DNA of 64,000 nt. It comes from Bryobacterales bacterium KBS 96. GTDB taxonomy: Bacteria; Acidobacteriota; Terriglobia; Bryobacterales; Bryobacteraceae. The notes under the pieces were generated by a model. That model had not been told where the DNA came from. It saw nothing but the letters and a program-made list of their open reading frames with translations, and ran no database searches. The DNA lies in assembly GCA_000381625.1 (NCBI GenBank), contig KB906767.1, forward strand, positions 4,765,357-4,829,356, read 5' to 3'. The first letter of the stretch is position 1; every line of letters begins with the position of its first letter. Position numbers and translations under genes: made by a program. Positions 31,263 to 58,157 of this stretch are shown here, piece after piece.

Positions 31263-32201
31263 ATGCGGGTTGTCTTTCTAGGCACGCCTGAGTTCGCGGC
31301 GCCCACACTGGAGGCGCTGGTCGCGGCGGGACATGAAGTCGCCGCTGTCTACACGCAGCCGGATCGTCCTAAGGGACGCGGCAATCGGCTTTCCCAATCG
31401 CCTGTCAAAGAGGCGGCCGCGCGGCACGGGCTGATGGTCTTGCAGCCGGAGCGGATACGGCGCCCGGAAAACGTCGCCGCGCTTAGCGAATTGAAACCCG
31501 GCGCCATGGTGGTCGTTGGCTACGGGCAAATTATTCCGCAAACCATCATCGATATTCCGAAGCATGGAATCCTGAACGTGCATGCGTCGCTGCTTCCGAA
31601 ATATCGCGGAGCGGCGCCCGTGCAATGGGCGATTGCAAACGGCGAAAGCGAGACAGGCGTCACCATCATGCAGATCGACGCGGGCCTGGACACGGGAGAC
31701 ATGCTGTTGCGGTGGCGAACGGCGATTGGGCCGCACGAGACCGCTCCCGAATTGGCGTTAAGGATGGCAAAGGAAGGCGCGGCTCTGTTGACCGAAAGCT
31801 TGCGGCGAATCGAGAACGGGACCGCGCGGCGCGAGAAACAGAATGATGCCGAAGCGAGTTACGCGCCAATTCTAAAGAAAGAAGACGGGCTGATTGTGTG
31901 GACGCGGCCCGCTCAGGAAATTTACAATCGGCTTCGCGGATTCACGCCTTGGCCCGGCGCGTACACGCAGTTTCGAGGCCAGCAGCTGCAGGTAATCCGC
32001 GCGATTCCGCATCCGCATTCGTTGGACGCGCCGAGTGGAATGGTGCAAACCGACCGACGGCGTCTATTTGTCTCGTGCGGCGCCGCGAGCACTCTGGAAT
32101 TGCTGGAAGTGCAAATGCAAGGGAAAAAGCGCATGGCCGTCGGCGATTTCCTGAATGGATATCCGATCGCGCCAAATGAACACCTCGGAGGGAATCAGTG
32201 A
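31263..32201 (+). CDS. fmt: Methionyl-tRNA formyltransferase
   Basis: A 312-residue enzyme that formylates initiator Met-tRNA using 10-formyltetrahydrofolate. The N-terminal formyltransferase domain has MRVVFLGTPEFAAPTLEAL and the catalytic NVHASLLPKYRGAAPVQWAI with the following TGVTIMQIDAGLDTGDML. The C-terminal OB-fold tRNA-binding domain is seen in YNRLRGFTPWPGAYT. It overlaps argJ by 4 bases (ATGA-type). Confidence 0.97.
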   Translation: MRVVFLGTPEFAAPTLEALVAAGHEVAAVYTQPDRPKGRGNRLSQSPVKEAAARHGLMVLQPERIRRPENVAALSELKPGAMVVVGYGQIIPQTIIDIPKHGILNVHASLLPKYRGAAPVQWAIANGESETGVTIMQIDAGLDTGDMLLRWRTAIGPHETAPELALRMAKEGAALLTESLRRIENGTARREKQNDAEASYAPILKKEDGLIVWTRPAQEIYNRLRGFTPWPGAYTQFRGQQLQVIRAIPHPHSLDAPSGMVQTDRRRLFVSCGAASTLELLEVQMQGKKRMAVGDFLNGYPIAPNEHLGGNQ

Positions 32202-33385
32202 AACTTCCACTTGGTTATCGCTACGCGAGCGCATACGCGGGAATTCGAAAGCAAGCCGATCAGGATGACGTCGCGCTGATTGTTTCCGACACGCCCGCGG
32301 CCGCTGCGTCGGTCTTCACGCAAAATGTAGTGCAAGCCGCGCCCGTGCGGTTGGCAAAACAACACCTCAAATCGTCGGGTGGCAAGGTTGCGGGCATTCT
32401 GGTCAATGCCGGAAACGCAAATTGCGCGACGCGAACAGGCGATCGCGTTGCGCTTGACTCGTGTAAAGCCGTGGCGAAGGCGCTGAAAACCAAGCCGAAA
32501 TACGTGCTGCCGGCATCCACGGGAGTGATCGGCGTCGAACTTGATTCGAAATTACTCGTTGCGCCGGTTCCCAGGCTGGTTCAGAAGCTGTTGCCTGGGG
32601 AAGCGGCCTTCGAGAGCGTGGCCCGCGCAATGATGACCACCGACACGCAAATGAAAGTTGCGAGCGAGGAAGTCAAATTCCGGGGTGGAACCGTGGTTGT
32701 CGCTGGCATGACGAAAGGCTCGGGCATGATTCATCCGAATATGGCGACAACGCTGGGTTTCATCATGACGGACGCGGCGATACCGGCGAAGCTGCTGAAA
32801 CCGATGCTGCTCGACGCCACCGAGAGATCGTACAACTCTCTGACAGTCGATGGCGATACGTCAACGAACGACATGATCGCGCTGCTCGCAAATGGCGCAT
32901 CGAAGGTATCGCTCGACGACAAAGAGCGGAAGGTTTTTGCGGAAGTGCTGGCGTGGGTGTTGGAGAGCCTCGCCGAACAGATCGCGGCCGATGGCGAAGG
33001 CGCGCGGAAACTGATTATCATTCGCGCTCTTGGGTTCCGGAGCACGGAAGATGCGCGCCGCGTAGCCCGCGCAATCGCCAATTCGCCGTTGGTAAAAACG
33101 GCGATTGCGGGCAGCGATCCAAACTGGGGGCGGATTCTCGCGGCGGCCGGTTATTCCGGCGTCAAGTTCGATCCATCCAGGGTGGACATTCATCTGCAGC
33201 GTGAACTCGTTTGTAAAGGCGGACTGGCGGCCGAATTCGATGAGGATGCGATGAAGGAAAAGCTGAACGGCGGCGAAGTGCGTATTCGCGTTACTTTGAA
33301 CGGCGGAGGCAAGGCGCAAGCGCGGTTCTTCACTTGCGATCTGACGAAAGAGTATATCGAGATCAACGGGAGTTACCGGACATAG
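32198..33385 (+). CDS. argJ: Bifunctional ornithine acetyltransferase/N-acetylglutamate synthase
   Basis: A 395-residue ArgJ. The precursor is expected to cleave itself between A183 and T184 in KGSGMIHPNMATTLGF, giving alpha and beta chains with T184 as the nucleophile. It moves the acetyl group from N-acetylornithine to glutamate in the cyclic arginine pathway, and some members also use acetyl-CoA. VNAGNANCATRTGD and SDPNWGRILAAAGYSG are further family motifs. It is separated from argC-argB and an acetyltransferase 22 kb away, and is coupled by a 4-base overlap to fmt. Confidence 0.96.
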   Translation: MKLPLGYRYASAYAGIRKQADQDDVALIVSDTPAAAASVFTQNVVQAAPVRLAKQHLKSSGGKVAGILVNAGNANCATRTGDRVALDSCKAVAKALKTKPKYVLPASTGVIGVELDSKLLVAPVPRLVQKLLPGEAAFESVARAMMTTDTQMKVASEEVKFRGGTVVVAGMTKGSGMIHPNMATTLGFIMTDAAIPAKLLKPMLLDATERSYNSLTVDGDTSTNDMIALLANGASKVSLDDKERKVFAEVLAWVLESLAEQIAADGEGARKLIIIRALGFRSTEDARRVARAIANSPLVKTAIAGSDPNWGRILAAAGYSGVKFDPSRVDIHLQRELVCKGGLAAEFDEDAMKEKLNGGEVRIRVTLNGGGKAQARFFTCDLTKEYIEINGSYRT

Positions 33386-55323: not shown

Positions 55324-55782
55324 TTGCCTTACTGTACTCGATGTGGAACGCAGGTTGACGCGCGGGCGGCCTTTTGCTTCAACTGCGGAGCGCGGCAGGC
55401 CACGCCGCCTGAAACCGTTGAAATATTGAATCGGATGAGCGACAGGACCGCATCGATGCTTTGTTATATCCCGATTTTCGGCGTGATCCCGGCCATCATT
55501 TTCCTTGCGTCTCACAAGTACCGGAAGGACCCGCGGGTTCGTTTCGATGCCTTCCAGTCCGTCTATCTGTTCGTGGCGTTTTTGATCGTTTCATCCGTTC
55601 TGCCGGCATTTTTCCTGCTAAGTTTCGGCCATTTTGGCATCCACGCGCTGTTTATCGGGCTTCTTAAAGCCGCGCTGTTCATCACCTGGATCTATCTCCT
55701 GGTGAAGGCGGCCCAGCAGCAGCAGGTGCATCTGCCAATCATCGGCGACTTGGCGGCGCGGTCGGCCGCGGAGCAGATGTAA
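55324..55782 (+). CDS. Zinc-ribbon membrane protein, DUF4870-like
   Basis: A 152-residue protein from a TTG at 55324, supported by AGAGGAG 12 bases upstream and the standard opening MPYCTRCGTQVDARAAFCFN. Two CxxC pairs form a zinc ribbon (residues 4-24). Residues 45-135 hold about three membrane segments arranged as in DUF4870/Tic20-type proteins (MLCYIPIFGVIPAIIFLASH, RFDAFQSVYLFVAFLIVSSV, ALFIGLLKAALFITWIYLLV). Its role is unknown. It ends 20 bases before argC, and the argC operator lies in that gap. Confidence 0.82.
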   Translation: MPYCTRCGTQVDARAAFCFNCGARQATPPETVEILNRMSDRTASMLCYIPIFGVIPAIIFLASHKYRKDPRVRFDAFQSVYLFVAFLIVSSVLPAFFLLSFGHFGIHALFIGLLKAALFITWIYLLVKAAQQQQVHLPIIGDLAARSAAEQM

Positions 55783-55816
55783 GGTATAATTATTCAGTCA
55801 AGTGAATAATTACTCA
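55783..55816 (+). promoter_or_regulatory. Candidate double ArgR operator over the argC -10 box and start
   Basis: TGAATAATTACTCA at 55803-55816 matches the ARG-box core TGAATwwwwATTCA at all but one fixed position. GGTATAATTATTCA at 55783-55796 is a weaker second box (8 of 10 fixed positions). Their centres are 20 bp apart, the spacing used by ArgR tandem boxes. A consensus -10 box, TATAAT, lies inside the first box at 55785-55790. The match is to the known ArgR consensus; binding is an inference. No argR gene is in this window. Confidence 0.6.
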
Positions 55817-56824
55817 AAACGGGCCCCTGTCGGCATCGTTGGCTTCCGAGGCTACAGCGGCGCTGAACTAGTACAACTCCTGAAGCGGCATCCAGCCGTC
55901 GATATCTTTTTGCTGGAGCATCGTTCTGACTCCGAAGCGCCGCCGCGACCCTTGGGCGCCCAACCGCTTATAACGATTCCGGCGACCGCCGCCGCCGTGA
56001 AGCAGGAAGGTTTGGCGGTCGTGTTTCTTGCGACGCCGGCCGAAGTTTCCATGGAGTTGGCCCCGGGCTTTCTCGAAGCCGGGGCTAAAGTAATCGACAT
56101 CAGCGGCGCATTTCGTTTGTCCGATGCTGGAACATACCGTCGGTGGTACAACGCCGAGCACTCGGCGGCGCAGCTTCTCGACGAGGCGGTCTACGGCCTG
56201 CCGGAGTTTTACCGCGAGAAGATTGTGCCCGCGCGGCTGATCGCGAATCCGGGGTGCTACCCGACGGCTGCCAATTTAGCAATCCGGCCTTTGATTGAGG
56301 CCGAAGTTGTGGACCGCACTCGCGGCGTGATTTGCGACGCAAAATCCGGGGTTAGCGGCGCCGGCCGCAAGCCATCGCTGAAGACCAGTTTCTGTGAAGT
56401 GGCGGAAAATTTCAGCGCTTACAGCATTATGGAGCACCGCCATGTTGCTGAAGTTCTCCAGCATTCCTGCCTGGGCGAGCGCGAATTCACGTTTACGGCA
56501 CAGTTGATTCCGATTTCGCGTGGCATTCTCGAAACCATTTATATCCGCACTCAGCGGGTCGAAAAAGCTGTCGACCTGTTAAGCATCTACGAAGAGCGCT
56601 ATGCGAATGAGCCGTTTGTCCGGCTTTACGCTCCCGGCAAGACACCGGATCTGCGCGCGGTACAGCATACGAACTTTTGCGATATCGGTTTCGTGTACGA
56701 TGCCGCGAGCCAGCGAGCCGTCATCGTTGCCGCCGAGGATAACCTCGTCAAGGGGGCGGCGGGGCAGGCAATTCAAAATATGAACCTGGCTCTCGGATTC
56801 CCGGAGACCGAAGGTCTGCTGTGA
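55802..56824 (+). CDS. argC: N-acetyl-gamma-glutamyl-phosphate reductase
   Basis: A 340-residue enzyme of the third step of arginine synthesis, reducing N-acetylglutamyl phosphate with NADPH. A GTG start gives VNNYSKRAPVGIVGFRGYSG, with the Rossmann loop GFRGYSGAEL. The catalytic cysteine is C152 in ANPGCYPTAANLA. The ARG-box-like sequence covers the start, and TATAAT ends 11 bases upstream, so the transcript may be nearly leaderless. It overlaps argB by 4 bases. Confidence 0.96.
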   Translation: MNNYSKRAPVGIVGFRGYSGAELVQLLKRHPAVDIFLLEHRSDSEAPPRPLGAQPLITIPATAAAVKQEGLAVVFLATPAEVSMELAPGFLEAGAKVIDISGAFRLSDAGTYRRWYNAEHSAAQLLDEAVYGLPEFYREKIVPARLIANPGCYPTAANLAIRPLIEAEVVDRTRGVICDAKSGVSGAGRKPSLKTSFCEVAENFSAYSIMEHRHVAEVLQHSCLGEREFTFTAQLIPISRGILETIYIRTQRVEKAVDLLSIYEERYANEPFVRLYAPGKTPDLRAVQHTNFCDIGFVYDAASQRAVIVAAEDNLVKGAAGQAIQNMNLALGFPETEGLL

Positions 56825-57603
56825 AAGCGCTGATCAAGCTGGGCGGCACGTTGCTCGATGATCCGGCGCTTCGGAATTCGCTGGCCGCGCAGATCGTCGA
56901 AGCTTCACGTTCCTGCCAGGTGGCGATCGTACATGGCGGCGGTAAGCAGGTCACGCGCTTTCTCGAGAATCGCGGAGTTCAGTCACGCTTCGTCAACGGC
57001 CTACGCGTAAGCGATGACGCCGTGATCGACGCCGTGGTTAAAGTGATAGCCGGCACGGTGAATCAGCAGCTTGTATCCGCCCTGGTGGCGGCGGGAGCCA
57101 ACGCCGTCGGGCTCTCCGGCGTCGACGGGCCGCTGACGATCGCCGAACAAATGCAGCCGGAACTGGGGAATGTCGGGCGTCCCGTACGCACCGACGCCCG
57201 CCTGCTCCATCTGCTCTCGGGCGCCGGTTATTTGCCCGTCATCGCGTGTATTGCGAGCGATCGCCAGGGCAACGTGTATAACGTGAATGCGGACCAGATG
57301 GCCGTTTCATGCGCCGCCGACTGGGGGGCTGAGAGGCTTCTCTTCTTAACCGATGTGCCGGGCGTCAAGAACGGCGACGGCGACATTTTGCCGGAATTGA
57401 CGGTTGCCGAAAGCCGCGCGCTGGTTGCGAGCGGCGCCGCCCATGGAGGTATGCAGGCCAAACTCGAGGCGGCCGAAGCCGGATTGCGGCAAGGCATCGG
57501 CGAAGTGTGCATCGCGCCGGGCCGCGAAACGGATATTTGCGCTCGTCTGCTTGCCGGCGAATTCGTGGGGACTCGAATCCATAAGGGCAGGGAAGCCGCA
57601 TGA
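56821..57603 (+). CDS. argB: Acetylglutamate kinase
   Basis: A 260-residue amino-acid kinase that phosphorylates N-acetylglutamate. KALIKLGGTLLDD holds the ATP lysine, IVHGGGKQVTRFLENRG binds substrate, and LLFLTDVPGVKNGDG and GAAHGGMQAKLEAAEAGLRQ are further motifs. The N-terminus is short, without the extension found in arginine-inhibited kinases, so feedback control may lie elsewhere. GTG start, 4-base overlaps on both sides. Confidence 0.95.
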   Translation: MKALIKLGGTLLDDPALRNSLAAQIVEASRSCQVAIVHGGGKQVTRFLENRGVQSRFVNGLRVSDDAVIDAVVKVIAGTVNQQLVSALVAAGANAVGLSGVDGPLTIAEQMQPELGNVGRPVRTDARLLHLLSGAGYLPVIACIASDRQGNVYNVNADQMAVSCAADWGAERLLFLTDVPGVKNGDGDILPELTVAESRALVASGAAHGGMQAKLEAAEAGLRQGIGEVCIAPGRETDICARLLAGEFVGTRIHKGREAA

Positions 57604-58157
57604 TCGCGACCGCCGTCTCCGTGCGCAAAGCCGCTATCCGGGACATTCACGACATTCTGGAGTTGATTAACTCGTATGCCGCCGGCGGTGTCATGTTACC
57701 TAGGACCGAGTTCGAGATGTCGGAGAACATCCGCGACTTCTGGGTTTCTTATGACGAGGCTCTTCTCCTGGGCTGCGGGGCTCTTCATTTTTATACGCCG
57801 ACAACGGCCGAGGTTCGATCGCTTGCCGTCCGTGAAAACGCGAAACGCCACGGCATAGGCCGCGCCATCGTCGAAAAGCTGGAGGAAGAGGCCCGCGAGA
57901 ACGACCTGGAAGCGATCTTTGCCTTCACGTATGTCCCGGGCTTTTTCCAAAAACTCGGCTTTGAAGAGACGGAACGAGGCGAATTGCCCCTGAAAGCCTG
58001 GAAAGATTGCCTGCGCTGCCCCAAATTTCACAATTGCGATGAAATCGCCGTTCTGAAGCGGCTGCGATCTCCGGCTCCGGCGAAAAAGATGTCTGAGCAA
58101 TCCGAATACCCGGAGAATCGGCTCATAGAAATTCCCGCCTATAATCCTTCTCGTTAG
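57600..58157 (+). CDS. argA: GNAT N-acetyltransferase, probable N-acetylglutamate synthase
   Basis: A 185-residue GNAT enzyme. VRKAAIRDIHDILELINSYA opens the domain, VRSLAVRENAKRHGIGRAIV holds the acetyl-CoA loop, and FFQKLGFEETE is the C-terminal signature shared with short-form N-acetylglutamate synthases that lack the kinase-like half. It overlaps argB by 4 bases, so an arginine role is likely. Together with argJ at 32198 it means the cell encodes both an acetyl-donor route and the recycling route. The symbol is by function rather than by full-length homology. Confidence 0.85.
   Translation: MIATAVSVRKAAIRDIHDILELINSYAAGGVMLPRTEFEMSENIRDFWVSYDEALLLGCGALHFYTPTTAEVRSLAVRENAKRHGIGRAIVEKLEEEARENDLEAIFAFTYVPGFFQKLGFEETERGELPLKAWKDCLRCPKFHNCDEIAVLKRLRSPAPAKKMSEQSEYPENRLIEIPAYNPSR

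Follow-up and report, generated by a model that had tools for sequence, protein, structure and literature searches.

A candidate ArgR operator over the promoter and start codon of argC in a Bryobacterales bacterium

Does the DNA in front of argC in Bryobacterales bacterium KBS 96 carry an operator through which arginine could repress the genes of its own synthesis? The question arises from a stretch of 64,000 nucleotides of this genome (the window), in which the first-pass annotation had placed two candidate ARG boxes over the argC promoter and start, and from them had predicted arginine repression of argC-argB-argA. We followed this claim through the letters of the site, the rest of the genome, the related genomes and the repressor itself.

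Layout of the site at argC

The features of the region, in window coordinates, are the following.

55324..55782, + strand: upstream gene, zinc ribbon (PF13240, 28.4 bits, cut-off 25) with a weak DUF4870 likeness
55783..55796, + strand: ARG box 1, 14-bp core GGTATAATTATTCA, right half ATTCA intact
55785..55790, + strand: -10 element TATAAT in box 1, recognised from its sequence and from TATAWT in relatives; predicted promoter activity
55797..55802, + strand: spacer, 6 bp between the 14-bp cores, equal to 2 bp between 18-bp boxes; poorly conserved
55803..55816, + strand: ARG box 2, TGAATAATTACTCA, overlapping the GTG start and codons 2-5 of argC
55802..56824, + strand: argC, N-acetyl-gamma-glutamyl-phosphate reductase, GTG start (TIGR01850, 386.8 bits, cut-off 233.6)
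56821..57603, + strand: argB, acetylglutamate kinase (TIGR00761, 193.5 bits, cut-off 151.3)
57600..58157, + strand: argA-like N-acetyltransferase (NF005840, 187.6 bits, cut-off 154; PF00583 over cut-off)

Both boxes are found at 55783-55816 with the letters and positions first described, their starts 20 bp apart. Compared with the consensus TGAATWWWWATTCA, box 1 has 2 mismatches (12/14), confined to the left half, where the TATAAT also arises, and box 2 has 1 mismatch (13/14 positions); with 2 bp between the 18-bp boxes, the proposed fit to the ArgR consensus and to tandem spacing holds. The TATAAT that had been noticed within one of the boxes lies in box 1, and the palindrome said to span the pair is borne out by AATTATTCA (55788-55796) and TGAATAATT (55803-55811), which are exact reverse complements because the inner halves of the two boxes face each other. 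The pair overlaps a predicted promoter, as ARG operators do, with TATAAT in box 1 and the argC start in box 2.

The TAA stop of the upstream gene, at 55780-55782, lies immediately 5' of box 1; the match of this gene to PF09685 (21.7 bits) is under the cut-off of 25. In argC, the GTG at 55802-55804 is the sole in-frame start found, and the frame is closed by a TAA at 55787-55789. The argC/argB and argB/argA overlaps are 4 bp each. From its place and family, the third gene of the operon is read as a short N-acetylglutamate synthase.

We consider, with a probability of about 93%, that the 34-bp site is a classic ArgR operator-promoter at argC. This reading is drawn from the boxes, from their conservation, from their placement before arg genes and from the presence of an ArgR with both domains; binding, arginine dependence and repression are predicted on these grounds. 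Against it count the two mismatches of box 1, the four argC loci of relatives that have no boxes, the 14 family genomes with no exact inner-half match and the one genome that has the box and no ArgR found in its assembly. When arginine is plentiful, the arginine-loaded ArgR hexamer would bind both boxes and would mask the transcription start, together with the -10 element through box 1 and, through box 2, the argC start codon and the bases that are transcribed first. RNA polymerase would be excluded as a consequence. When arginine drops, ArgR would be released and argC-argB-argA made. The argF-argG genes would be under the same kind of operator. In E. coli, according to the part of the source available (PMC6640053), the arginine-loaded hexamer binds two boxes that overlap the promoter.

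The overlap with the start codon is shared by some relatives. The window and 8 relatives share a GTG overlapping box 2 as the first start of the argC frame. Among the other 21 relatives having the boxes, 18 have as first argC-frame start an ATG located 33 to 57 bases downstream of where box 1 begins, and in L034, L036 and L042 there are earlier start candidates as well. In the window, transcription would start near 55797, that is, 7 bases after TATAAT, and would leave a leader of 5 nt. That box 2 contains the start codon in the GTG clade suggests that the argC mRNA of this clade is nearly leaderless. Leaderless genes have been predicted at 13.3% on average in 3/3 acidobacterial genomes, with a -10-like signal some 12 bp upstream of the start codon (PMC3160421, from partial text); the distance from -10 element to start codon is 17 bp here, and the mRNA would hence be nearly, not strictly, leaderless.

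The position of box 2, past the predicted transcription start and covering the start codon, would also suit an ArgR that binds the site and mainly activates, or that acts on translation of the near-leaderless mRNA, in either case without excluding the polymerase. We regard this as very improbable, since box 1 covers the -10 element, since the arginine-synthesis operators of E. coli partly overlap -10 and/or -35 elements in the available part of PMC6640053, and since the leader RNA has no structure beyond that of its shuffles (z 0.18).

The pair in the genome and in relatives

A single box is weak evidence in 64 kb. At up to 2 mismatches the window contains 3 matches, compared to 1.04 expected, and 3 were reached in 8 of 100 shuffles. 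For the pair as a whole we used a 34-bp matrix built from 53 sites of relatives (28 argC and 25 argF). The argC site scored 51.4, as opposed to -10.8 for the runner-up position in the window (the same site on the other strand being left out) and to a top score of 8.5 in 3 Mb of simulated sequence on both strands. A chance origin of the pair is thereby ruled out. The lowest two of the 53 training sites scored 16.7 and 21.0. The training sites include that of the nearest relative (L017), which has the identical 34 letters, so the score of 51.4 is not fully independent; the pattern counts are unaffected. A simpler two-box score was also used, in which at least 21/28 counted as present. Among 30 argR loci of 1.7-3.2 kb not one reached this value, and the threshold of 21 is borderline, because a chance 21 occurs once in a 9-kb locus (L043), at 22-bp spacing.

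In the 6.69-Mb genome the exact pattern TTATTCA-N6-TGAATAA has two matches, one at argC and the other at C1:5486644, directly 5' of argF, which is followed by argG. Its reversed control has none. When up to 3 mismatches are allowed, the pattern is found in 156 places, versus 69 for its reverse, and such looser matches are therefore unspecific. A 14-bp ARG box without any mismatch is found only once in the genome, as the second box of the argF site. The -10 letters of this site (TGTGTAATTATTCA) differ from those of argC. The argJ, argH and argR loci (L099, L179 and L001) contain no comparable ARG pair within the 3-4 kb examined of each, their best matrix scores being -31.5, -14.9 and -22.6, respectively. 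The idea that the box would recur at other arg genes was thus confirmed for argF-argG and failed for argJ. The window also contains the latter gene (32198-33382), at a distance of about 22 kb from argC. The argH gene adjoins a ribosome recycling factor gene and an amino-acid-kinase gene, which we read as frr and pyrH, pyrH being named by eye.

Searching the genome for a single box at up to 2 mismatches yielded 83 places, versus 36 for the reversed pattern, and at up to 1 mismatch 6 places, of which one is argC and one argF. Four single boxes with at most 1 mismatch (L003, L004, L005, L007) had no partner box and gave no tblastn match to seven Arg proteins (ArgA, B, C, F, G, H and R of this genome), and were discarded. 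The three 1-mismatch tandem places (L102-L104) had no match to the seven proteins either.

Conservation was assessed at argC in the loci of Bryobacter type, which make up 36 of the 80 sampled; the counts leave out 43 loci of other phyla and a distant acidobacterial one (L081). Three of the 36 (L025, L049, L094) start within argC and lack upstream DNA, which leaves 33. These relatives are akin and are not independent samples. The tandem box is found 5' of argC in 29 of the 33, 28 times at 20 bp and once at 21 bp (L044), and the palindrome is hence kept in close relatives, as the first-pass annotation required of a genuine operator. An alignment of 30 sites (that of the window plus those of the 29 box-bearing relatives, with L044 forced into the 20-bp register) gives, per column, 1.49 bits within the boxes, 0.46 within the spacer, and 0.20 and 0.21 within the flanks, figures that are raised by the choice of rows having the box and by their alignment on it. 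Of the 29 relatives having the box, 26 show TATAWT at the same place in box 1. Among the 21 box-bearing relatives outside the group with GTG in the box, the argC frame has a stop within box 2 in 14 and within the 34 bp in 16, which means that it is DNA, not protein, that is conserved there. Pure coding constraint is ruled out by these in-frame stops in box 2 and by the variable spacer between conserved blocks.

The argF loci behave similarly. The search covered 30 of the 34 genomes in the ArgR survey, and the tandem box was found 5' of argF, at 21/28 or more, in 27 of 30 loci (own included), two of which (L177, L178) stand exactly at 21/28. The misses are two loci without upstream DNA at a contig end (L150, L176) and one that scores 19 (L159), in which the inner halves are intact and the outer halves lost.

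Four of the 33 argC loci (L022, L041, L043, L045) have no boxes, although their genomes have ArgR. Among 32 loci that could be judged, these same four are also the only ones in which a neighbouring argA was not found; L047 was not counted here, its downstream side being cut. On a tree of argC (33 relatives, the window and, as outgroup, 3 of the 43 loci of other phyla), the group lacking box and argA needs 3 changes, of which well-supported branches force 2, so that the change arose more than once. L022 falls within the GTG-start clade; its start codon is retained and its box is gone.

We then consider surveys that start from the motif and use no gene information. Exact TTATTCA-N6-TGAATAA occurs in 47 of 61 family genomes and was not found in the remaining 14; the reversed control occurs in 0/61. 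One place per genome was read in 30 of the 47, and all 30 lie 5' of an arg gene, which is argC or argF in 28 cases, argB-argA in one and argA in another. This sample overlaps with the gene-first one, some genomes being identical or close kin. At L244 and L245 the exact pair stands 5' of argB-argA or argA, as if the operator travelled with argA.

In a draw of 297 genomes of the phylum, the exact pattern was found in 9, including all 3 of the own family, and the reversed control in 3, none of them in that family. The exact places number 11, and 6 of them precede arg genes. Of the 6 exact places outside the family, five (L182-L186) look like chance occurrences, having given no match to the seven Arg proteins. 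The sixth is an exact pair 5' of argR-argC in a genome of another family of the class (L189 in G117, family f2). In a second genome of family f2 (L220 in G069), a pair upstream of argC has letters nearer TGCATAWWTATGCA. At the level of the class, 30 argC loci were read from 41 genomes, and 22 of them (own included) reach 21/28 within about 1.5 kb upstream; the 8 that do not include 4 of the 5 loci of family f86.

These data bear on another view, namely that the site is an AT-rich promoter, a -10 element plus leader, whose likeness to ARG boxes is a by-product. TATAAT is indeed present and could be kept by any promoter. Such a promoter does not account for two conserved 14-bp blocks around a variable 6-bp middle, with a 20-bp period in 28 of 29 sites, for the same pair 5' of argF despite different -10 letters, or for the fact that a gene-blind pattern led to arg genes at every place read. 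We hold this view to be very improbable.

The repressor and its gene

The predicted repression calls for an ArgR homologue, and the genome has one. It is the single match to PF01316, the DNA-binding domain (62.1 bits, cut-off 27), and it carries the arginine-binding domain PF02863 (81.3 bits, cut-off 25). The protein aligns over its full length with solved ArgR/AhrC structures, with an E value of 2.5e-22 for 1f9n, titled arginine repressor/activator. ArgR was found in 33 of 34 genomes, own included; in the other (G018, locus L035) the box is present and ArgR was not found in the assembly. The AGDDT motif is present in 28 of 29 ArgR sequences (relatives and own), the remaining one being truncated; this set leaves out L128 and three matches without a locus. 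The recognition-helix motif was the selection key for the set and proves nothing by itself. In the draw of 297 genomes there are 193 ArgR matches, of which 190 are over cut-off.

The placement of argR was read in the 30 of 33 ArgR matches that were given loci. In 28 of these argR comes directly after argH, the exceptions being this genome (L001:1501-1935) and its nearest relative (L134). In both, argR stands alone with no ARG pair near it. Since argR is next after argH elsewhere, the argF box probably controls argR too in those relatives. Clustering of argR with arginine genes is the usual arrangement in the available part of PMC3293853.

ArgR is assigned to the site from sequence, and real boxes could be read by a different transcription factor with a similar site, as the genome with the box and no ArgR in its assembly might suggest. 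The site nevertheless fits the ARG consensus published in PMC4865122 (from partial text), ArgR was found in 33 of the 34 genomes surveyed, argR follows argH directly in 28 of 30 loci, and all 30 sites read stand before arginine genes. This possibility is in our opinion as slight as that of a mere AT-rich promoter, and ArgR remains by far the best candidate.

A more detailed picture of the GTG clade (the window and nine relatives, one with the box lost) has, we estimate, an even chance of being right. A single 34-bp element would serve as operator, promoter, leader and coding sequence, with most of the GTG and codons 2-5 coming from box 2 and the mRNA beginning about 5 nt before the GTG. In the window genome and its sister, argR would have left the cluster, ArgR would have ceased to limit its own production, and the regulon would be reduced to argCBA and argFG.

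Significance and comparison with known ArgR operators

It is well supported that the site would be an ordinary ArgR operator, a known kind of switch, newly mapped where we found no earlier description. By title or abstract in the open-licence literature, no account of an acidobacterial ArgR regulon was found, which is not proof of absence; a match in PMC11441701 came from a misspelt word. A comparative paper of 2001 reportedly dealt with conservation of the ARG site across bacterial lineages. The start-codon overlap, the freed argR and the link to argA are modest additions, and general knowledge of ArgR is unchanged by the finding at argC. The gain is a sequence-defined and directly testable candidate arginine regulon for the Acidobacteriota of the family around Bryobacter, together with one short exact pattern that finds arginine genes in this family without annotation. 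That argA and box are missing together, and that argR has moved out of its cluster, may be seen as small natural experiments in the rewiring of a feedback circuit.

The known systems are compared here from partial text of the sources cited. Both the forms of the ARG consensus and the domain layout of the ArgR family are described in PMC4865122, and the letters of the present boxes are nearer the E. coli form TGAATWWWWATTCA than the Streptomyces form TGCATRWWYATGCA given there. The spacing, on the other hand, equals that of the Streptomyces ArgR operators at argC, argG and argH, which consist of two 18-bp boxes with a 2-bp gap (PMC3293853). E. coli operators are likewise paired palindromic ARG boxes on promoter elements (PMC6640053); their usual gap is 3 bp, and 2 bp at argR (PMC3293853), as opposed to 2 bp here. 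In Bacillus subtilis, the AhrC operator is likewise made of paired boxes 5' of argC; these boxes are 11 bp apart and are accompanied by a single box within the argC coding region (PMC3293853), whereas the present ones are in tandem with 2 bp between them. Finally, in contrast to E. coli, box 2 reaches over the start codon here, and one predicted ARG box in the Streptomyces paper also overlaps a start codon (PMC3293853).
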